Assembly: GCA_030668225.1 (NCBI GenBank)
Contig: DAOUUI010000007.1
Span: forward strand, 1 to 35,335
Source of the DNA: Deltaproteobacteria bacterium
GTDB taxonomy: Bacteria; Desulfobacterota; Deferrimicrobia; Deferrimicrobiales; Deferrimicrobiaceae
Reading direction: 5' to 3'
Length of the DNA stretch: 35,335 nt
In this document: piece by piece, positions 20,046 to 29,832 of the stretch
Numbering within the stretch: position 1 is the first letter of the stretch
Layout: every line of letters starts with the position of its first letter
Notes under the pieces: model-generated
What the model was told of the DNA's origin: nothing
What the model saw: only the letters and a program-made list of their open reading frames with translations
Database searches by the model: none
Translations under genes and position numbers: made by a program

Positions 20046-20059
20046 TTGACGTACATCAA
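20046..20059 (+). promoter_or_regulatory. FNR/DNR-family binding site
   Basis: TTGACGTACATCAA matches the FNR-type consensus TTGAT-N4-ATCAA at 9 of 10 specified positions. It is centred at 20052.5. If the TATCCT at 20082-20087 is the -10, the start would be near 20094 and the site would sit at -41.5, the classical activating position for the oxidase-like gene at 20148. The same site lies over the likely -35 of the divergent carbonic anhydrase. The site suggests control by oxygen or nitric oxide through a Crp/FNR protein not encoded in this window. Confidence 0.6.
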
Positions 20060-20114
20060 TGCGCACGGCGAACGGGACGTCTATCCTTGCCATAATATGG
20101 CTTTGCCAACTCGA

Positions 20115-20127
20115 GGGGAGTGTCCCC
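20115..20127. repeat. Half copy of the GGGGACA element
   Basis: GGGGAGTGTCCCC here contains one arm of the dispersed element: its reverse complement GGGGACACTCCC matches the arm GGGGACACTCCT at 11 of 12 positions. No second arm is found nearby. It lies in the leader of the gene at 20148 and also forms a short palindrome that could fold in the mRNA. Confidence 0.4.
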
Positions 20128-20147
20128 GATAACGATAGGGAGGAACG

Positions 20148-21083
20148 ATGGATCGGTACACCAAGGCATTTGTTGTCGCTGCGCTCGTATACTTTTTCCT
20201 GGCGGCCGTGCTGGGCGCCTGGATGGGGTCCGCCGCGGCTGCGGGGTGGGTTCAGTTCGCCCACGTCCATTTCAACATGCTGGGCTTCATGTCGATGATG
20301 ATCTACGGGGTGGGGTACTTCATCCTGCCCCGGTTCAACGGCCGCACTCTTCACTGGCCCTCGTGGGTGCCCCTGCACTTCTACGCAGCCAACGTCGGCC
20401 TGATCGGGATGGTGGCCACGGCGCCGGAGCGCCCCTCGACGGGATTCGCCCTGTTCGCCGGGCTGTCGGTCGTGTCGGTGGCGATGTTCGTGATCAACCT
20501 CGGCGCGACGATGCTCATCGCGCCGGCGGAGGAAGAGGAAGAAGAGGAGGAGGAGGCGCCATCCTTGCGACCGCAGGCTCCGCCGCCTCCTCAGGTGGAT
20601 ATCCACCCCGATATGCGGGTGGGGGAGATCCTGACCCGGTGGCCCCAGACGGTGGAGGTTTTCGTGGCAAACGGATTCGCCTCCCTGGGGAACCCGGAGC
20701 ACAGGGAACAGGTGAAGCAGATCCCCATTACCTTGCGGATGGCGTGCCAGCGGCACAACGTCGAACTCGGGCCGATGGTCGCCCGGCTGATTGCGTCCGC
20801 CTCCGGGACACCGGCACCCGAACCGGCCGGGGCAGGGGTTCCGCGTGGGACGGCAGGCCGAAAAGGCAAGCTTTCCCGTGGGGAGCCGATCCGCCCGGAC
20901 AGCGTTTTGGGCGATATCCTCGCCGCGTATCCGGAGACGGAGAAGGTGTTCAGGAAATATTACGGGGACGGGTGCTTTTCATGCCCCGGCCAGGCGACCG
21001 AGAGCGTCAAGCAGAGCGCGATGATGCACAACGTAAGCGAGAAGGAGATTCTAACCGACCTGAACCGGGCGGCCGGCTTCTGA
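20148..21083 (+). CDS. Haem-copper oxidase subunit I-like membrane protein fused to two DUF1858 domains
   Basis: The 311-residue protein has four helices (about 8-27, 36-60, 74-93, 99-124) resembling part of subunit I of cbb3 oxidases and NO reductases, with FAHVHFNMLGF (H39, H41) as possible haem ligands. It is too short for a complete binuclear centre, so a role as haem-b protein, NO/O2 sensor or partner subunit is more likely than oxygen reduction. A linker of nine glutamates (128-136) and a proline-rich stretch follow. A DUF1858 domain without cysteines comes next (about 150-218), then a second with C276-x2-C279 (GDGCFSCPG, about 248-311). The ATG follows AGGGAGGAACG. An FNR-like site upstream suggests induction by low oxygen or NO. 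I know of no assigned function for this fusion. Confidence 0.78.
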   Translation: MDRYTKAFVVAALVYFFLAAVLGAWMGSAAAAGWVQFAHVHFNMLGFMSMMIYGVGYFILPRFNGRTLHWPSWVPLHFYAANVGLIGMVATAPERPSTGFALFAGLSVVSVAMFVINLGATMLIAPAEEEEEEEEEAPSLRPQAPPPPQVDIHPDMRVGEILTRWPQTVEVFVANGFASLGNPEHREQVKQIPITLRMACQRHNVELGPMVARLIASASGTPAPEPAGAGVPRGTAGRKGKLSRGEPIRPDSVLGDILAAYPETEKVFRKYYGDGCFSCPGQATESVKQSAMMHNVSEKEILTDLNRAAGF

Positions 21084-21117
21084 TAGTGGACCGTCTCTGG
21101 ATCTGACGGAGGGTGCG

Positions 21118-21519
21118 ATGATCGACCGGATGCAGGAACTGCTCGAGGCGGAACGGGCGGGGGTACGATGCCTCGCTGCGATGGCGGACGAGACCCCGGA
21201 GGGGGAGAAGAAGGATTTCCTCGTTTTCCTCCGGAACGACGAGGGGCGATTTTGCGCCGGGCTGTCCCGGCTCATCCAGGAGCGGGGAGGGGTCCCTACC
21301 GACAGGGTCGGATCTTTCGCGGAAAAGGTTCTCTCCATCGAGGGAGAAGCCGAGAGGCTGGCGCTCCTCGTCAAGGGGCAGGCGTGGGTCGTCCGCAAGA
21401 TCGACGAGATCCCGCCGGGAGAGACGACCCCCGGAGAAAAGGCGTTCTTCTCCGACATGCACAAAGCCCACGTGGTAAACATCGAGGCGTGCCGGAAATA
21501 CCTCCCCGCCGCCGGATGA
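21118..21519 (+). CDS. Ferritin-like helical protein (DUF6306-like)
   Basis: The 133-residue, all-helical, soluble protein is compatible with a four-helix bundle. Helix 1 has LLEAERAGVRCLAAM, helix 2 has EGRFCAGLSRLIQERGG, helix 3 has LALLVKGQAWVVRKI and helix 4 has DMHKAHVVNIEACRKYL. Glutamates and histidines at bundle-facing positions (E11, E41, H121, E125 by rough count) could bind a di-iron centre, but no canonical ExxH pair is complete to my reading. Closest recall is the uncharacterised DUF6306 family. It begins 34 nt after the oxidase-like/DUF1858 gene with GGAGGGTGCG before the ATG, so it is probably co-transcribed and may share a role in handling NO or oxygen. Function is not known. 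Confidence 0.7.
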   Translation: MIDRMQELLEAERAGVRCLAAMADETPEGEKKDFLVFLRNDEGRFCAGLSRLIQERGGVPTDRVGSFAEKVLSIEGEAERLALLVKGQAWVVRKIDEIPPGETTPGEKAFFSDMHKAHVVNIEACRKYLPAAG

Positions 21520-21770: not shown

Positions 21771-22124
21771 ATGTACACGGCGAAGTGGAGCGACATCGAG
21801 GGGAAGACGGTCACCGACCCCGAGGCGGAGGGGGTCACCATCCGCGTCCTGATGGGGGAGAACGTGGGCGCGCCGACGTTCACGATGCGCCACTTCGAGA
21901 TCGCCCCCGGCGGCCGCACTCCGTTCCACACCCACGCGTGGGAGCACGAGGTCTACGTCCTCTCCGGCAGGGGGAAGGTCCGGAATAAAGACAGTGAGCG
22001 GGAGATCGGCCCGGACTCCTTCGTCTACGTCCCTCGGGAAGAGGAGCACAACTTCGAAAACACGGGAGATTCTCCCTTCACGTTCCTCTGCGTGATCCCG
22101 TCCGCGAAACCCTGCCTGAAGTAG
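21771..22124 (+). CDS. Small single-domain cupin protein
   Basis: The 117-residue protein is a single conserved cupin barrel. Motif 1 is PFHTHAWEHEVYVLSGRG (H53, H55, E60 as metal ligands) and motif 2 contains PREEEHNFEN (H93). All four ligand positions are present, so it should bind a metal such as Mn, Fe, Ni or Zn. The reaction is unknown; free-standing cupins of this size include isomerases, dioxygenases and sensors. The ATG at 21771 follows GGGGGGAG. It lies 251 nt after the ferritin-like gene, with a 27-bp repeat between, so it may have its own promoter. It is convergent with the alternative complex III operon. Confidence 0.85.
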   Translation: MYTAKWSDIEGKTVTDPEAEGVTIRVLMGENVGAPTFTMRHFEIAPGGRTPFHTHAWEHEVYVLSGRGKVRNKDSEREIGPDSFVYVPREEEHNFENTGDSPFTFLCVIPSAKPCLK

Positions 22125-22358: not shown

Positions 22359-23411
22359 CTACGCTTCGAGGACGCTCTCCCCGGGTTCCCGTTTCACCCT
22401 CACGAGAAGGACGAAAAGGAGAAGGAAGCAGAGGAAGTGGATCGCCAGCACTCCGAAGCGCACCGGGACGATGGGGGCAAGATAGACGAACCGTTCGACC
22501 AGGATCCCCAGCAGGATGGAGAGAGACGCGGCGAACACCACGAACGGGTTCGTCTTTGACCTGCCGGGCAAGAGAATGAAGAAGGGGACGAAGAAGTAGA
22601 AGGCGAGGATCGAGAGGGAAAGCTCGCGGAGAGGCGACGAGGATATTCTCGCCAGGAGATAACTCACCTCCTCCGGGATATTCCCGTACCAGATCACGAG
22701 GAACTGGGCAAAAAACAGCCCCACCCACAGAATGCTGAACCCGAAAAGCAGGATGGCAATGTCTTTCAGGTCGGAGCGGCCTGTCGGCCCGTGTGTCGGG
22801 GCGGGCCTTCCATGGAGAAAAGCGTAGAGGATGCCCGACAGGGCGAACCCCGCGAACAGGGACTCGATGAAGAAATAGCCTCCCAGCAGCGTGTTGACCC
22901 AGGGATACGCCAGCGACATGACCCAGTCGAACGCCATGAAGGACTGGGAAGCGACGAAAACGAAGAGATAGATGGCCGCGAACCGTTCCCTCCCCTCTTC
23001 GTCCCTGTGGGAAGCGATGGCGAATCTTCTCGCCGCAAGGTAGGCGAGCAGCAGCAGGACGAAATTTCTCCCGACGAAAAATCCCTTGTCGAACCAGATC
23101 CCCTCCCTGCCGACCCAGGGATAGGAATCCACGAAGGGCGTAAGGAACAGGAAGAGGACCGAGACGAACAACAGGAGGGGATGGACCGAGAGGAGCTCCC
23201 TCTTCACGGATGCCACCCACTTGGCCTTGATCAGGGTGCACGCCGCAACAGCGGCGATGCAGCCCTCGATGACCGAGGCCCAGAACAGAAGGGCCAGGAG
23301 AAGCGAGCCGCCGTCTTTGGCCAGGGGACCGAACTGGGTAAGCGCCACGATTCCCCCTGCGAGGACGAACAGTACGATCCGGCCGCCCGTCATTTCCGGC
23401 AACCCCTTCAT
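22359..23411 (-). CDS. actF: Alternative complex III membrane subunit ActF
   Basis: The 350-residue polytopic protein has about ten helices and ends the respiratory operon. ActF is a smaller relative of the NrfD/PsrC-type ActC and forms part of the membrane core of quinol:cytochrome c oxidoreductase (alternative complex III). Visible features are the hydrophobic blocks IVLFVLAGGIVALTQFGPLA, FVGRNFVLLLLAYLAAR and SQSFMAFDWVMSLAYPW, the last being characteristic of the ActF family. The ATG at 23411 overlaps the actD stop (ATGA), so it is coupled to it. A longer frame to 23615 lies inside actD and is rejected. No actG/actH or oxidase genes follow; the operon ends at the repeat element. Confidence 0.84.
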   Translation of the reverse strand: MKGLPEMTGGRIVLFVLAGGIVALTQFGPLAKDGGSLLLALLFWASVIEGCIAAVAACTLIKAKWVASVKRELLSVHPLLLFVSVLFLFLTPFVDSYPWVGREGIWFDKGFFVGRNFVLLLLAYLAARRFAIASHRDEEGRERFAAIYLFVFVASQSFMAFDWVMSLAYPWVNTLLGGYFFIESLFAGFALSGILYAFLHGRPAPTHGPTGRSDLKDIAILLFGFSILWVGLFFAQFLVIWYGNIPEEVSYLLARISSSPLRELSLSILAFYFFVPFFILLPGRSKTNPFVVFAASLSILLGILVERFVYLAPIVPVRFGVLAIHFLCFLLLFVLLVRVKREPGESVLEA

Positions 23412-23845
23412 TCCGTTTCCCCCGGCTCCACGGTGATCACGAACGCGTTCCCGAACTCCTCCTTCGGGACAAAACCGGAAACGCTCGGCAGACGAGCAAG
23501 GATAAGAAACCCGAAAAACGTGGACAGGGCCCCGAACAGGATCGTGAGGGCGAAGGCGATGATGACAAACGGCGGAAGGGAGACGATCGGCTTCCCCCCG
23601 ACGATGAGCGGCCAACTGAGGGACGTTAGGATCGTGAAGGCAAACCCGGTAACTGTGCCGCTCGCGGCGCCCAGGAGGGCGAAATTTTTCACCTTCGCCG
23701 GCTTCGTCGGCAGGATCTCGTCCACCTCATGGACGTGGAAAGGGGTTTCCACCTGGATTCTTTTTTGTGAAACCCCCTCCCGGGCCAGGTCGCGCAGGGC
23801 CGCGAGGAACTCCTCCCTGTCCTGGAAAACCATCCGCCTCTCCAT
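23408..23845 (-). CDS. actD: Alternative complex III subunit ActD (DUF3341)
   Basis: The 145-residue protein has a soluble N-terminal half with the DUF3341-type segment VETPFHVHEVDEILP, followed by two hydrophobic helices (about 55-80 and 92-118). This is the ActD layout; the subunit helps join the periplasmic and membrane parts of the complex and has no cofactor. Its ATG is immediately next to the actC stop, with no gap. It lies in the canonical actC-actD order. Confidence 0.86.
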   Translation of the reverse strand: MERRMVFQDREEFLAALRDLAREGVSQKRIQVETPFHVHEVDEILPTKPAKVKNFALLGAASGTVTGFAFTILTSLSWPLIVGGKPIVSLPPFVIIAFALTILFGALSTFFGFLILARLPSVSGFVPKEEFGNAFVITVEPGETE

Positions 23846-25141
23846 TTAGAGGTGCTCCATGATTTCCGTAATCGACAGCACGGGCAAGGTTTTCAGGAAA
23901 ATCAGATACGCCGTAAAGAACAGCCCGAAGCTGCCCAGGGTGATCCCCACCTCGACAAAACTGGGGGAGTACGTCCCCCACGCGTAAGGGTCGAAATCCC
24001 GGGCAAGAGACGAGACGATGATCACGAACCGCTCCACCCACATTCCCACGTTCACGAAGAGGGAGAGGACGAACAGGTATTTCACGTTGCGCCGCAGGCT
24101 CCGCACGAAAAGCGTAAGGGGGATCAAGGAATTGCAGGAGATCATGATCCAGAACATCACGGTGTAGTCCCCCAGGGCGCGGTACCGGAACTGCTCCATC
24201 TCGAAGGGGTTCCCGCTGTAGGCGGCGAGGCCGAACTCGACAATGTAGGAGTAGCTCACGATGAGGGAGGTAAAGAGGAGGATCTTCGCGATGCTCTCGA
24301 AATGGTCGTCGGTGATGTACCGGTCGAGGGCCAGGATCTTGCGCATGGGAACGACAAGCGTGATGACCATCGCCGTGCCGGAGAAGATCGCGCCGGCCAC
24401 GAAGTAGGGGGCGAAGATGGTGGTGTGCCACCCGGGGATGATGCTCATGGCGAAGTCCCACGAGACGACGGAGTGGACCGACGCCACGAGGGGAGTGGCG
24501 AACGCGGCCAGGAACAGGTAAAGCTGGTTGTAGTTCTTCCACTGCCTTCTCGTCCCCGTCCAGCCGAGGGAGAGAAAGCCGTAGATCCGTTTTGCCAACC
24601 CCTCCTTGTGCCTGCGCACGATGGCGAAGTCGGGGATCAGCCCCACGTAGAAAAAGACGACGCTCACGGTGAGATACGTGCTCACGGCGAAGACGTCCCA
24701 GATCAAGGGAGAGCGGAAATTCACCCAGAGCATCCGCTGCGTCGGGTAGGGGAAGAGGTAGTAGAACTTCCAGGTCCGGCCGAGGTGGATCAGGGGGAAC
24801 AGTCCCGCGACGAGCAGCGCGAAAACGGTCATCGCCTCGGCGGGACGATTGAAGCTGGTGCGGAACCGGGCGCGGAACAGGAACAGGACCGCCGAGATCA
24901 GCGTCCCCGAGTGGGCGATACCGACCCAGAAGACGAAATTCGTGATGTAGACCCCCCATCCCACGGGATTCATGAGGCCCGACACCCCCATGCCGGTCGT
25001 GATCTGGTAGCCCCATAATCCGAGGAGGGTGAGAAAGAGGGTGGCGGAGCATCCGAGGGCCGCAAGATACCCGATCCCCGGCCTCTTCATCGCGGCGAGG
25101 ACGTCCTGTTCCACCCGGGCCAGTTTGTCGTGTTTATCCAT
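23846..25141 (-). CDS. actC: Alternative complex III quinol-binding subunit ActC (NrfD-like)
   Basis: The 431-residue NrfD/PolySulfide-reductase-type membrane protein has about ten helices. Typical segments are NPVGWGVYITNFVFWVGIAH, SFNRPAEAMTVFALLVAGLFP and HTTIFAPYFVAGAIFSGTAM, all strongly ActC-like. It holds the quinol oxidation site of the complex and passes electrons to the Fe-S chain of ActB; whether it moves protons is debated. The ATG at 25141 overlaps the end of actB by 8 nt and follows AAGAAGAG. Eleven additional in-frame codons upstream lie in actB and are not used. Length and neighbours agree with ActC. Confidence 0.92.
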   Translation of the reverse strand: MDKHDKLARVEQDVLAAMKRPGIGYLAALGCSATLFLTLLGLWGYQITTGMGVSGLMNPVGWGVYITNFVFWVGIAHSGTLISAVLFLFRARFRTSFNRPAEAMTVFALLVAGLFPLIHLGRTWKFYYLFPYPTQRMLWVNFRSPLIWDVFAVSTYLTVSVVFFYVGLIPDFAIVRRHKEGLAKRIYGFLSLGWTGTRRQWKNYNQLYLFLAAFATPLVASVHSVVSWDFAMSIIPGWHTTIFAPYFVAGAIFSGTAMVITLVVPMRKILALDRYITDDHFESIAKILLFTSLIVSYSYIVEFGLAAYSGNPFEMEQFRYRALGDYTVMFWIMISCNSLIPLTLFVRSLRRNVKYLFVLSLFVNVGMWVERFVIIVSSLARDFDPYAWGTYSPSFVEVGITLGSFGLFFTAYLIFLKTLPVLSITEIMEHL

Positions 25142-27965
25142 GGCTCTTCTTCCCGGGGTCGCCTTTCTCTCCACTCAGATAGTACACGGAAGGATCCGTT
25201 CCCAGGCCCTCGAAAACCCGGTAGGCCCTCCCGGAGTGCGCCAGCCGGTACACCCGCGACTCCGGATCGAGGAGGTTACCGAAGGTGATGGCGCCCGTGG
25301 GACAACTCTCCGCGCAAGCCGTCGTTACCTCCCCGGACCGGACCGTGCGGGACCCGTCTTTCGCCTTGTCCTTGGCGGCACGGATCCGCTGAATGCAGAA
25401 GGTGCACTTCTCCATGACCCCCGCCCCCCGGGCCTGCAGTTCGGGGTTCAGCATTCTGTTCAATGGCTTTTCCCACCGGTGCCAGAACCAGTTGAACCGC
25501 CTCACCTTGTAGGGGCAGTTGTTCGAGCAGTACCTCGTCCCCACGCACCGGTTGTACACCTGGACGTTCAACCCCTCGGGGTTGTGATAGGCGGCGTACA
25601 CCGGGCACACCGTCTCGCAGGGAGCGGAATGGCACTGCTGGCAAAGCATGGGGAGGAAATCGACGTTCCCCGCCTCCCCGTAGAAGGGCTCGATCCGAAG
25701 CCACGACATCTCCCGGCCCTTCAGGTGGTCCTTCTTCCCGACGACGGGGATGTTGTTCTCGATGTAGCAGGCGGCAACGCACGCGGAACAGCCGTTGCAA
25801 AGCGCCAGGTCGATGGCCATGGCCCACCGGTACTCCTTGTGCACGTGCTCCGGGTAGAGGCTCTCCCTTCCGTGGTGTTGTTTTTCGTCCCTGTGGACGG
25901 GATCGGGAATCAGCCCCCGCCCCTGCTGGGAAGGGGAGCCGGAGAGGATGGGGATGGCCGCCATCTTTCCGGTTTTTCCTATGGTGACTTTCTCGATGTA
26001 CTCGATTGTCCCTCCCGTCCGTTTCTCCGTCCGAAGGGGGGGAGATTCGCCGAAGTCGCGGCAGGCCACGAAGACTCCTGCCGGGAGGCCCGGCTGAACC
26101 TTCACCGGGAGAACCTGCGACCAGCCGGAGGAGGAGGAGACGGTTACCTCCTGCCTCTCCTTGAGTCCCGCTCCCGCCGCCGTCTCCGGCGAAACCGAGA
26201 GCCAGCGCCCGTAGGAGATGGTGGTCAGGGGGTCGGGAATCTCGGAGAGGAGCGGTAATCCCCGGCTCCGCCCGTCGAAGGTCCTAAGAGACGGGGCCAG
26301 CACGAGGACGGGCTCGCCCGGTTTCATCCCTGCCTGCGCCCCCTTGAGAAGGGAGGCCGCCTTTTTCCCGTCGAGGGAGACCCGTTTCGCGGGGAGGGGT
26401 TCCTCGAAATAGCCCTGCTCGAGAAACGCGCTTCTTCCGCTTTCCCCGAACCGTTTCCGCCACGCGTCGAACAGGAAGTCCCGGTACCCTGACGCGGTCC
26501 CTTCCCCGGCACTCCCGTGGAGGAGACGGAGCAGCATGTCTCCTTCGGAGAGCGTGTCGTGAAGGGTTTTCAGCACGGGCTTCTGAAGGGAGACGATCCC
26601 CCGCCTCGGCTCGACGTCCCCCCACGACTCGAGGGAGTGGGAGAGGGGGAGGAAAAGGTCTACCTCCTGCATCGTCTCGTCCGGGAGATCGCCTATCCCT
26701 ACCGACAGCTTCGCTTTTTTAAGATTCTCCCTGAACCCGACCTCTTCCGGCAGGGAGAATACGGGGTTCGTCCGCGACAGGAACAGGACCCCGACCTCTC
26801 CCCCGCCCAGCCGGGCAGTGAGATCTTCCATGTCCCGAAAGGTCCCCACACTTTCGTAGTTCTCCCTCCTCCTGAAATCGACCAGGTCGGGGACTGCCCC
26901 CGTGACCCACTGGATCACGCAGGCCGCGCCCGCCACCTCGAGGCCTCCCGGGTGGGCCGTGGAAACTCCTCCGGCGATCACCAGGGGGCGCCTCGCGTGC
27001 GCAATGCGGTCGGCGACCTCTTGCAACGTACCGGCGGGGATCCCCGTGGCCTCCGACACGCGCTCGACGGACATCCGGGGGAGGGCTTCGGAAATCTCCC
27101 GGGGAAATTCGCCCCTGCGGGGCCCTTTTTCCATCAGATGCCGGAGTAAAAACGAGAGGAATACCGCTTCCTGCCACGGACGGACCACGATTCTCCTGTC
27201 GGCGTTCGCACCGGTCAGCGACAGATGGGGCTCCACGTGGTACCACCGGAACCCCTCCTTGCTCTTTGCCCGGGACAGCTGCCGGGTGTAGGAAACGGGG
27301 CTTACGTGCGTCTCGAGAATATCCGCTCCGACCGTCAGGAGAAAATCGGCATTCTCGATCCGGTAGCGGGGAACGTCGCGCTCTCCGAAGAGCAGGCCGT
27401 TCGCCTCTTTACCCTCGGAATGGGAATAGACCTCGAACTCGGGAAGCCTCTTAACCCCGACCTTCCCGCAGAACATGCCGATCAGCCCGGAGAGGGAGCC
27501 GGTGGTCCTTCCGGACAGGAAGAGGTTTGTCCGCCCGGAGGCACGGGAGGCGTCAAGGGTCTCCGAAACCGTGGAGAAGGCCTTCTCCCAGGAAATTCTC
27601 CGGACCTTCCCACTGCCGTTTCGCAGCATGGGAGAACCGATCCTCTTCGGGTGATACAGGCGGGTTATGGAAGACTGCCCGCGGATGCACAACCCGCCGT
27701 CGTTTACCGGATGCCCCGGGGAACCTTCGAGCTTGATCGGCCATCCTTCCCTGATCTTCACCGACACGCCGCACCCGGCGGGGCATTCCGCGCACGTGGA
27801 CGGGGAAAAGGTCGCTTCTCCGGGAAGGATCCCCTCTTCCGGGGGGAGAATGTAGGAGATGAATTTTTTCGGCCCGTTGCCGGAGCCGCAGGAGGACACC
27901 AGGGTGGAGCCCGACACCCCCCCCATGATCCTCAGGAAATCTCTTCGCTTCAACCGTCGCTTCAT
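25134..27965 (-). CDS. actB: Alternative complex III subunit ActB (molybdopterin-like plus Fe-S protein)
   Basis: This 943-residue periplasmic electron-transfer subunit starts with a Tat signal (RRDFLRIMGG) ending in a lipobox-like VSSC, in line with lipid-anchored ActB in a solved complex. The first part is a molybdopterin-oxidoreductase-like domain. The last ~230 residues form a ferredoxin domain with cysteine groups CNGCSAC, CQQCHSAPCETVC, CVGTRYCSNNC and CTFC...AESC, enough for four clusters. The N-terminus also keeps C-x2-C-x3-C-x26-C (CAECPAGCG...GGLC), the pattern of the extra [4Fe-4S] cluster of true molybdoenzymes; structurally known ActB proteins lack cofactors there. No Mo-ligating Cys, SeCys or Ser is evident. 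The ATG follows AGAGGAACGG, 12 nt after actA. Confidence 0.9.
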   Translation of the reverse strand: MKRRLKRRDFLRIMGGVSGSTLVSSCGSGNGPKKFISYILPPEEGILPGEATFSPSTCAECPAGCGVSVKIREGWPIKLEGSPGHPVNDGGLCIRGQSSITRLYHPKRIGSPMLRNGSGKVRRISWEKAFSTVSETLDASRASGRTNLFLSGRTTGSLSGLIGMFCGKVGVKRLPEFEVYSHSEGKEANGLLFGERDVPRYRIENADFLLTVGADILETHVSPVSYTRQLSRAKSKEGFRWYHVEPHLSLTGANADRRIVVRPWQEAVFLSFLLRHLMEKGPRRGEFPREISEALPRMSVERVSEATGIPAGTLQEVADRIAHARRPLVIAGGVSTAHPGGLEVAGAACVIQWVTGAVPDLVDFRRRENYESVGTFRDMEDLTARLGGGEVGVLFLSRTNPVFSLPEEVGFRENLKKAKLSVGIGDLPDETMQEVDLFLPLSHSLESWGDVEPRRGIVSLQKPVLKTLHDTLSEGDMLLRLLHGSAGEGTASGYRDFLFDAWRKRFGESGRSAFLEQGYFEEPLPAKRVSLDGKKAASLLKGAQAGMKPGEPVLVLAPSLRTFDGRSRGLPLLSEIPDPLTTISYGRWLSVSPETAAGAGLKERQEVTVSSSSGWSQVLPVKVQPGLPAGVFVACRDFGESPPLRTEKRTGGTIEYIEKVTIGKTGKMAAIPILSGSPSQQGRGLIPDPVHRDEKQHHGRESLYPEHVHKEYRWAMAIDLALCNGCSACVAACYIENNIPVVGKKDHLKGREMSWLRIEPFYGEAGNVDFLPMLCQQCHSAPCETVCPVYAAYHNPEGLNVQVYNRCVGTRYCSNNCPYKVRRFNWFWHRWEKPLNRMLNPELQARGAGVMEKCTFCIQRIRAAKDKAKDGSRTVRSGEVTTACAESCPTGAITFGNLLDPESRVYRLAHSGRAYRVFEGLGTDPSVYYLSGEKGDPGKKSHG

Positions 27966-27977
27966 CTTCCGTTCCTC

Positions 27978-28505
27978 TTACTTGTGGCAGGTGGCACAGT
28001 CCCGGGGAGCCCCCCTGGCCCTGTGGCAGGAAACGCACCACCCCATTTTCAACGAGCTTACCCTGCGGATCTTTTCCATTGCCCCCACCTGTCCGTGGCA
28101 ATTTTTGCAGTCCACGCCCGCCTTGACATGCCTCTTGTGCGAAAAGTAGACGTGCTCCGGCAAGGAGTATACCCGGTTCCACTCGATCGGCTTTTTCTCC
28201 TCGTAATGCCGTGTGAGCTTCCGGATCTCTTCCCTCTCCGTTGCGATCGTCCTGTGGCAGGACATGCATTTTTCCACGGGCGGAGCCCCCGCGTGCTTCG
28301 ACCGGTCGACGAAGATGTGACAGAAATTGCAGGGCAGGTTCAGTTTCGACACGTGGATCGTGTGGGGGAAAGCGATCGGCTGGTCGGGGCTAAGCCCCGC
28401 GCGATGCCAGGAAATCCAAAGGCCCACAGTGCCCAGGAGAAGGACCCCGAAATATGCCGATACGGCAAGAAGGGTAACCGTTTTTCTCACTTCCCCTGTC
28501 CCCAT
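27978..28505 (-). CDS. actA: Alternative complex III pentahaem cytochrome ActA
   Basis: The 175-residue protein has an N-terminal membrane anchor (about residues 10-32) and five CxxCH haem sites at C59, C80, C133, C157 and C170. The five haems and anchor match ActA, which conducts electrons from ActB toward the cytochrome c exit. The additional histidines (for example FPHTIH and FSHKRH) are placed as distal ligands in the manner of class III/c7-like cytochromes. It is somewhat shorter than many ActA proteins. The ATG at 28505 follows GAAAGGGAAC and lies 22 nt after the preceding cytochrome gene. Confidence 0.9.
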   Translation of the reverse strand: MGTGEVRKTVTLLAVSAYFGVLLLGTVGLWISWHRAGLSPDQPIAFPHTIHVSKLNLPCNFCHIFVDRSKHAGAPPVEKCMSCHRTIATEREEIRKLTRHYEEKKPIEWNRVYSLPEHVYFSHKRHVKAGVDCKNCHGQVGAMEKIRRVSSLKMGWCVSCHRARGAPRDCATCHK

Positions 28506-28527
28506 GTTCCCTTTCGTCCGGGAAGGT

Positions 28528-29832
28528 TCACGGCGAACCGCCGGGTTTTACCCGCCCGATCAGGTACCTTGCGACGGCATCGATCTCTTCCTCCGGAAGC
28601 CCGAGATTGGGCATCGACGGGAGGTCCGGGTTCACCTTGACCGGGTTCCGGATGAATCCTTTCAGCTTCTCCACGTCGCCTGCGTATTTCGGCACCACTT
28701 CGTTTAACGGCGGACCGACGACCCGGATGTCGAACTGGTGACATCCCGCGCAGTTCGTTTCGAACACGGCTTTCCCCGTTTCGGCCGCCGTCTTTCCGCC
28801 CGCAGCCGGTTCTTCCCGGGGCGCCTCTTTCGCGTGTTCCGCCTCGACCGCCTTGGCCTGCATGTTCAGGGAGGCGATCCGGTCCTGGTAGGCGTTTCCG
28901 ACCGCCGCGTGGTCGTGCACGAGTACCGCGAGAAAGATCAGGACATACAGGGTGGCTATCCGCGCGCCCGGGCCGCCTTCCTTTTTGCCGGAAGGAAGAG
29001 AGAGGATCAGGCAGACCGCAAGCGACAGGAGCAGGACGATCGCCGCAGTCGCGAACACTGTCGCGGAAAGCGCGATTTCCGGGAGGGTAACCAGATCGAG
29101 CAGCACGAAAACAGGGAGGACAAGCGTCGCAAGAAAGGTGAGTTTCGCGCCAATGTCGCGGACCAACCCCCGGTAGGAAGCGTCCGGCGCTTCCTTCCCT
29201 TCCGCAGACCGGCCGCCAAGAAGGAGAATCCCCCCGCCGGTCATCCCGAAAAAAACGGCGAGGAACAGAAGATATTTCACGACCGCGTTCCAGGAGAGGA
29301 AAAACCGGATATGTTCCCGGAGAAGGGAAAGCTTCTCCGGATTGAAGAGGACTCCGTACCCCTGGGAAAAGAGGAAAAAGGCGAAGAACAACGCCAGCAG
29401 CCCGGCGGCGCCGGACATGACATGGAACGGGGAAGGGGAAGGCGGGCGCCTCCAGGCCGACCGGTACACGTGGAGAAGGGCGAAACCGGCGACCAGGACC
29501 GCAAGGACAGCGGACCAGAAATGCCACGGCAGCGGAGTCGCATCAAAGAAAATCCGTGCGTAGATAAACCAGACGAGCAGGACAGGGACGAGGCCGAACA
29601 TGAAAAGGGCGGACTTGCCCGTCATGACGGTCTCCATCATCTCCTTCGAGAAGCGCAGATAGGCCGGGTCCCGCTTTTCCTTTCCGAGAAAGGAAAGGAG
29701 GAGAGAGACGGTCGATCCGCCGATGATGACCCCGAGGAAAGGGAGGAAAAAAAACAGGACGAGGAACAGCCCGTACTGAAGCAGGGTGTATAATTCCGTG
29801 GATAGCGGTTGCAGATTCCCCCAGGAGGCCAC
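28528..29832 (-). CDS. Polytopic membrane protein with C-terminal monohaem cytochrome c domain
   Basis: This 434-residue protein is the first gene of the operon. Residues 15-320 contain about eight or nine hydrophobic helices with several helix-embedded or loop histidines (PWHFW, LLHVY, VHDHA) that could bind b-type haem; I do not recognise the membrane domain with certainty. A hydrophilic linker leads to a class I cytochrome c domain with C361AGCH and the axial methionine M407 in SMPNLGLP. Canonical alternative complex III has a separate monohaem lipoprotein, ActE; none is found here, so this protein may supply that haem or link the complex to an acceptor. The start is GTG with AAAGGATC before it; a shorter ATG start is not evident. 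Confidence 0.78.
   Translation of the reverse strand: MASWGNLQPLSTELYTLLQYGLFLVLFFFLPFLGVIIGGSTVSLLLSFLGKEKRDPAYLRFSKEMMETVMTGKSALFMFGLVPVLLVWFIYARIFFDATPLPWHFWSAVLAVLVAGFALLHVYRSAWRRPPSPSPFHVMSGAAGLLALFFAFFLFSQGYGVLFNPEKLSLLREHIRFFLSWNAVVKYLLFLAVFFGMTGGGILLLGGRSAEGKEAPDASYRGLVRDIGAKLTFLATLVLPVFVLLDLVTLPEIALSATVFATAAIVLLLSLAVCLILSLPSGKKEGGPGARIATLYVLIFLAVLVHDHAAVGNAYQDRIASLNMQAKAVEAEHAKEAPREEPAAGGKTAAETGKAVFETNCAGCHQFDIRVVGPPLNEVVPKYAGDVEKLKGFIRNPVKVNPDLPSMPNLGLPEEEIDAVARYLIGRVKPGGSP

Follow-up and report, generated by a model that had tools for sequence, protein, structure and literature searches.

A four-helix oxidase-like unit fused to two DUF1858 domains: a candidate membrane protein of NO stress in uncultured bacteria

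Introduction

The window, i.e., the whole 35,335-nucleotide stretch of deltaproteobacterial DNA analysed here, carries a gene that raises a simple question: what can a protein do that combines four helices of an oxidase-like membrane subunit with two DUF1858 domains? Subunit I of haem-copper oxidases has 12 helices in a pseudo-threefold arrangement, and according to an old idea these enzymes arose from a repeated four-helix unit. The HxH motif of NorB and CcoN binds the two haems. NnrS (PF05940) is a 12-helix haem protein of NO resistance and ScdA_N is a domain of the RIC/YtfE Fe-S repair proteins, and NCBIfam names TIGR03980 the 'hybrid cluster protein-associated redox disulfide domain'. Literature searches on TIGR03980, DUF6306, and the four-helix origin of haem-copper oxidases brought up nothing on the fusion described below.

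The answer that we favour, with a probability of about 0.5, is an NnrS-like membrane protein of NO stress under HcpR/DNR control, probably built around a trimeric b-haem core with a dithiol partner and protecting iron and Fe-S clusters.

Domain organisation of the fusion protein

The following features were assigned to the gene:

20148..21083, + strand: fusion gene (four-helix oxidase-like unit, Cys-less DUF1858, CxxC DUF1858), 311 aa, by Pfam, NCBIfam and AlphaFold2
20148..20522, + strand: four-helix membrane unit (aa 1-125), corresponding to a single repeat of the haem-copper oxidase/NnrS fold
20262-20270, + strand: HxH of the four-helix unit, aa 39 and 41 (the further His is H77)
20601..20768, + strand: Cys-less DUF1858 domain, aa 152-207 (best Pfam stretch)
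20889..21065, + strand: CxxC DUF1858/TIGR03980 domain, aa 248-306 (NCBIfam)
20973-20990, + strand: CFSCPG motif of the second DUF1858, C276-F-S-C279

The reading frame starts with ATG, is preceded by GGAGG, and encodes, from the N- to the C-terminus, the four-helix unit, an acidic Pro-rich linker, the DUF1858 domain devoid of CxxC, a second linker, and the DUF1858 domain with CFSCPG. This layout, proposed in the original prediction, was confirmed by Pfam, NCBIfam, AlphaFold2, and conservation. The protein belongs to DUF1858 (PF08984; 85.9 bits, cut-off 32.2) and to TIGR03980 (70 bits, cut-off 44.95), and its CxxC domain also matches ScdA_N (E 6e-7). The likeness of aa 5-122 to COX1 (PF00115) is weak but correct, with 14.9 bits lying under the Pfam cut-off of 34.8, and with 10.7 bits against a cut-off of 28 the protein is not a member of NnrS. 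Its best membrane relatives by sequence are cbb3 subunits I.

The AlphaFold2 model (pLDDT 86) comprises helices 3-28, 33-63, 73-94, and 98-123 and two DUF1858 folds. Its best PDB membrane match is the NO reductase 4xyd (Foldseek probability 1.00, E weak at 0.7) and its best soluble match the DUF1858 protein 2k5e (probability 1.00, E weak at 0.16). The model thus has 4 transmembrane helices against the 12 of a haem-copper oxidase subunit I, and in place of the six haem/metal histidines (plus the NorB glutamate in NO reductases) only HxH and one of H58/H77 are conserved.

Conservation and predicted topology

Some match to the fusion was found in 36 of 59 relatives, and more than 12 genomes of the same family carry it entire, the whole protein being 50-87% identical in relatives. 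HxH (H39, H41) and CxxCPG (C276, C279, P280, G281) are among the residues invariant in all 34 aligned fusions, so that a chance open reading frame can be dismissed. Across 61 four-helix units the invariant residues are H39, H41, G46, F47, M48, M50, M51, G54, P61, F63, and N117. That the protein is a functionless, degraded remnant of an oxidase might be suggested by its shortness and its sub-threshold COX1 score, but is highly improbable: HxH, GFMxMM, N117, and CxxCPG are invariant across phyla and the operons are conserved, which already contradicts decay.

A third His is present in every four-helix unit, at position 58 (the end of helix 2) or 77 (the start of helix 3): F58/H77 occurs in 18 units, H58/Q77 in 39, both His in 4, and neither in none. 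Beside HxH, this residue would give each unit less than a complete oxidase site, which counts against the favoured reading. An exchange between H58 and H77 is at most suggestive, since a few changes on the tree suffice and independent pairs are too few.

Positively charged residues are found at the N-terminus of the four-helix units, in the loop joining helices 2 and 3, and behind helix 4. From this placement, we predict an N-in/C-in topology, with HxH probably facing the periplasm and the DUF1858 domains in the cytoplasm.

Fused and split forms across phyla

The window sequence used alone as a query gave no match, and an alignment of 19 homologues was used to gather 80 loci. According to the record titles these come from Deltaproteobacteria/Desulfobacterota, Nitrospinota, Zixibacteria, Latescibacteria, Rokubacteria, Acidobacteria, and Nitrospirota. 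About 40 genomes, spread over several phyla, carry a fused form. Among the 80 named loci, the long fusion accounts for about 31, and two (L092 and L094) have a short fusion (about 223 aa) in which DUF1858 is present once; in about 38, mostly from Nitrospirota, a four-helix gene is directly followed by a separate CxxC DUF1858 gene. Nearly every complete locus has the membrane unit and the CxxC domain either fused or side by side. On the tree, fused and split forms separate into two clades with a single change between them (SH-aLRT 99), so fusion or fission took place about once; given this pattern and too few independent pairs, the H58/H77 exchange could not be taken as a repeated one. Fusion in one clade and retained adjacency in the other indicate that the two parts work together.

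Neither a full 12-helix oxidase nor separation from NO genes, either of which would speak against the original prediction, was encountered: fused and split homologues alike keep four helices, and the link to NO is strong. The split relative L104 just passes the COX1 threshold (35.5 bits, cut-off 34.8).

Two further observations concern related genes. The window's own genome encodes a second, stand-alone four-helix HVH protein of 144 aa (L005, contig C116, 8037-8471) behind a ribonuclease E/G-like gene; similar single units are present in most relatives. A 222-aa protein, unassigned to a family, lies beside four-helix/DUF1858 genes in two unrelated loci (L094, 6066-6734; L056, 9231-9899).

One repeat of the 12-helix fold

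In hhalign, the four-helix profile aligned to NorB helices I-IV (E 1.5e-6) and again to helices IX-XI (E 3.6e-4), both E-values being those of a single comparison or a tiny set; hmmsearch with the same profile gave weak matches at both places. Longer homologues of the unit are tandem concatemers only. A natural triple concatemer with three HxH motifs and no DUF1858 occurs in L152 (15-1250) and L158. The 411-aa protein of genome G068 has three full units, each with HxH, and shares 58% identity over 407 aa with its orthologue in G313. A double concatemer occurs in G086 (L153, 4889-5764). In addition, the profile found three units in a 12-helix NnrS/COX1-type protein of G149 (L154, 2493-4241), which scores above the NnrS cut-off and has a DUF1858 domain at each end. 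This protein links the NnrS fold with DUF1858 domains and looks like a three-repeat equivalent of the window protein. Similar reading frames were noted in G070, G228, and G285. DUF2871 was considered as a known four-helix relative and dropped, as no match exceeded its cut-off.

The natural triple concatemers show the unit to be one repeat of the 12-helix fold, so that an oligomer could rebuild an oxidase-like core. Whether the free unit does so as a homotrimer we regard as an even bet, with the concatemers arguing for it. The original view that the membrane part is too short for O2 or NO reduction therefore holds for a monomer, but not necessarily for an oligomer. Somewhat short of even odds, we would place the broader idea that the unit is a free-standing homotrimeric repeat, a living counterpart of the haem-copper oxidase ancestor before triplication that now serves NO defence together with thiol domains, the double and triple concatemers being natural intermediates.

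Gene neighbourhood and the link to NO

Downstream of the fusion, two more genes were annotated:

21118..21519, + strand: DUF6306 gene, ferritin-like fold without ExxH, 133 aa (Pfam 90.3 bits, AlphaFold2, Foldseek)
21771..22124, + strand: small cupin gene (Pfam Cupin_2, 67.4 bits), often next in the cluster

The small ferritin-like partner gene of the original prediction is thereby identified as DUF6306, which in 11 genomes is the gene directly after the fusion. AlphaFold2 models it (pLDDT 94.6) with the four-helix ferritin fold (probability 1.00, TM-scores up to about 0.8, Foldseek E 0.02 or worse). No ExxH di-iron motif was found in the window protein, so iron storage should not be assumed. 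The cupin gene lies at most two genes away on the same strand in 12 loci, some of the loci in such neighbour counts being the same contigs under two identifiers. On the other strand of the window (22359-29832), a cluster resembling alternative complex III adjoins the fusion gene, here and in relatives, with ActD (23408-23845), a large molybdopterin/Fe-S-type protein (25134-27965), and a cytochrome-type protein (27978-28505).

Ten genomes from the same family as the window share the gene order norC, norB, fusion, optionally followed by DUF6306 and the cupin gene. The NorB of these relatives is a true cNOR (PDB 3o0r from P. aeruginosa, E 6e-114) with the HLWVEG, GHH, and HGH motifs kept. An hcp gene follows the fusion in L053. 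YgbA_NO genes lie upstream of split forms in about 10 loci of Desulfobacterota-like MAGs; in E. coli, ygbA is induced by NO and regulated by NsrR (PMC5320621). In an independent study, a DUF1858 gene of Bradyrhizobium proved to be strongly induced under denitrifying conditions in dependence on NnrR (PMC6710368). Of the low-oxygen or NO module suggested originally, it is the NO half that is borne out, by the norCB, hcp, ygbA, and nfu neighbours and by the HcpR/DNR-type boxes described below, and we consider a link of the system to NO stress very probable.

The Nfu-type NifU domain gene nfu stands directly upstream in 30 loci, mainly of Nitrospirota split forms, and L103 has the order iscU-iscS-nfu-4TM-DUF1858. 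In Nitrospirota, most copies lack an HcpR-type box and adjoin nfu and a sigma-54 regulator gene, a setting that also fits a general Fe-S or redox duty and counts against the NO-protein reading. These neighbours are what would be expected of a protein of general Fe-S biogenesis or thiol redox, delivering electrons or sulfur to Nfu, with only a secondary link to NO; the proximity of norCB, hcp, and ygbA and the HcpR-type boxes, seen in several lineages that are unrelated, speak against it and make it improbable.

Crp/Fnr genes adjoin the gene in L079, L087, and others. Together with the sigma-54 activator beside the split form, they could indicate a membrane NO/redox sensor, in which haem-bound NO alters the DUF1858 dithiol and a signal passes to a cytoplasmic regulator. 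The protein, however, has no output domain (kinase, cyclase, or DNA-binding) and the neighbouring regulators are complete sensor-regulators themselves; we rate such a role as rather improbable, a shade above the Fe-S biogenesis role.

A candidate HcpR/DNR operator and the loss of norCB

Two features precede the fusion gene:

20046..20059, + strand: candidate HcpR/DNR-type operator TTGACGTACATCAA, 102 bases before the ATG of the fusion
20060..20147, + strand: deletion scar; left part matches the norC promoter of relatives, right part their norB/fusion junction

The box TTGACGTACATCAA, with ATCAA as its right half, resembles the delta-proteobacterial HcpR consensus wyTTGACnnnnGTCAArw (PMC1274295). 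Among 92 non-identical loci, boxes are present in 27, and TTGAY-N4-RTCAA occurs 29 times in the 40.5 kb upstream of the gene or operon versus 21 times in 1268 kb elsewhere, a 43-fold enrichment (Fisher p 6e-31, a value that ignores relatedness); several of the boxes counted as elsewhere also precede the same operons. The whole window genome has six TTGAC-N4-RTCAA sites and none of the reversed control pattern. Others of its boxes lie before nfu and ferredoxin, before the gene of a c77-type protein, and about 0.6 kb before rubrerythrin. The c77 family also occurs beside the fusion/four-helix system in L053 and L131. In the window's own genome, c77 (L144, contig C260) is a small Cys-containing protein with no Pfam match, preceded by an HcpR-type box, and a longer form of the family carries a ferredoxin domain.

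A search of the window genome with a Crp/Fnr query returned a single regulator (L145), which is devoid of the FNR Cys cluster and shares with HcpR1 the Pro-Glu pair described for its recognition positions; its best match in PDB is DNR (E 1.2e-28). The predicted site matches the NO-responsive, haem-dependent HcpR/DNR type rather than O2-FNR. The FNR-like site of the original prediction is real, but its type had to be corrected; control by O2-FNR was set aside, as the only regulator matched has no FNR cysteines.

By blastn against L036 and L037, the stretch before the fusion is a composite: on the left it matches their norC promoter, on the right the junction between their norB and fusion genes. 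No norB was found in the window genome (96.5% complete, 266 contigs) by two queries, the second of which finds norB in five relatives; neither hcp nor NnrS was detected there, the NnrS search matching G149 only. Thus norCB has been deleted here and its promoter left before the fusion, which outlived norCB and inherited that promoter. A short GGAGTGTCCCC-like element stands directly before the gene, at 20114-20147 of the window and upstream of the fusion in L037, L039, and L040; in these three relatives it is preceded by GGGGACAC, possibly forming a hairpin.

The position directly downstream of norC-norB, apparently behind the same promoter box, in ten relatives would suit an accessory or assembly factor of NO reductase NorCB, which inserts haem or iron or stabilises the complex, a role like that of other nor accessory genes. 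Survival of the fusion without norCB argues against a pure assembly role: the window genome and others keep the gene without norB, and outside this phylum norB is missing from the examined surroundings of most homologues. We therefore consider this role unlikely, albeit less so than those of a sensor or an Fe-S biogenesis protein. The lack of detectable norB, hcp, and NnrS in the window genome also counts against an NnrS-like NO protein.

Discussion

The favoured NO-stress protein builds on the domain layout, the conservation of HxH and CxxC, the gene linkage, the box enrichment, and the repeat relationship observed above. In such a scheme, a rise in NO would lead the HcpR/DNR-type haem regulator to bind the TTGAC-N4-RTCAA box and switch on the fusion gene. 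The four-helix unit would insert N-in/C-in, with HxH near the periplasmic side like the haem site of NO reductase subunit I, and three units may assemble into a 12-helix, oxidase/NnrS-like core binding b-haem. On the cytoplasmic side, where both DUF1858 domains would reside, the CFSCPG dithiol may link the membrane haem with Fe-S repair in the cytoplasm by accepting or handing over electrons or nitrosyl groups; in relatives, the partners of this repair could be Hcp, Nfu, and YgbA. As an outcome, the iron and Fe-S pool would be kept from nitrosyl complexes, alongside NorCB/Hcp or, in the window organism, without them.

These results connect DUF1858, a domain so far known by this name or as 'hybrid cluster protein-associated' only, with NO defence and with a minimal membrane protein of oxidase-like type in many phyla without cultured members. 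Because the repeat exists in single, double, and triple form, the idea of a four-helix origin of haem-copper oxidases becomes open to a direct test. Annotation would label some of the four-helix genes as cytochrome oxidase subunit I, and they would then wrongly be taken as evidence of respiration.

Comparison with known systems

TIGR03980/DUF1858 is usually a small soluble protein, whereas in the fusion it is tethered to the membrane and has a Cys-less copy at its side; the CxxC domain clearly belongs to TIGR03980 and is a remote relative of ScdA_N. DrpB of Thermus thermophilus, composed of DUF1858 and two DUF2249 domains, is tied to nitrate respiration (PMC6282519). It shares DUF1858 with the fusion but differs in the tandem DUF2249, and no oxidase-like unit has been described in DrpB. 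With NorB and CcoN the fusion shares the HxH helix, similar to NorB helix X (SHGHLAFFG) and likewise followed by P[RK]. Unlike haem-copper oxidases and NorB, it has neither the FeB/CuB histidines nor the NorB glutamate and has four helices. NnrS resembles the fusion in its oxidase-like membrane fold and NO context, and a DUF1858-NnrS-like-DUF1858 protein exists (L154); the difference is that NnrS consists of three repeats with 12 helices and the fusion of one repeat with four. NnrS is reported not to remove NO directly but to keep dinitrosyl iron complexes from forming in the iron pool (PMC9246220).
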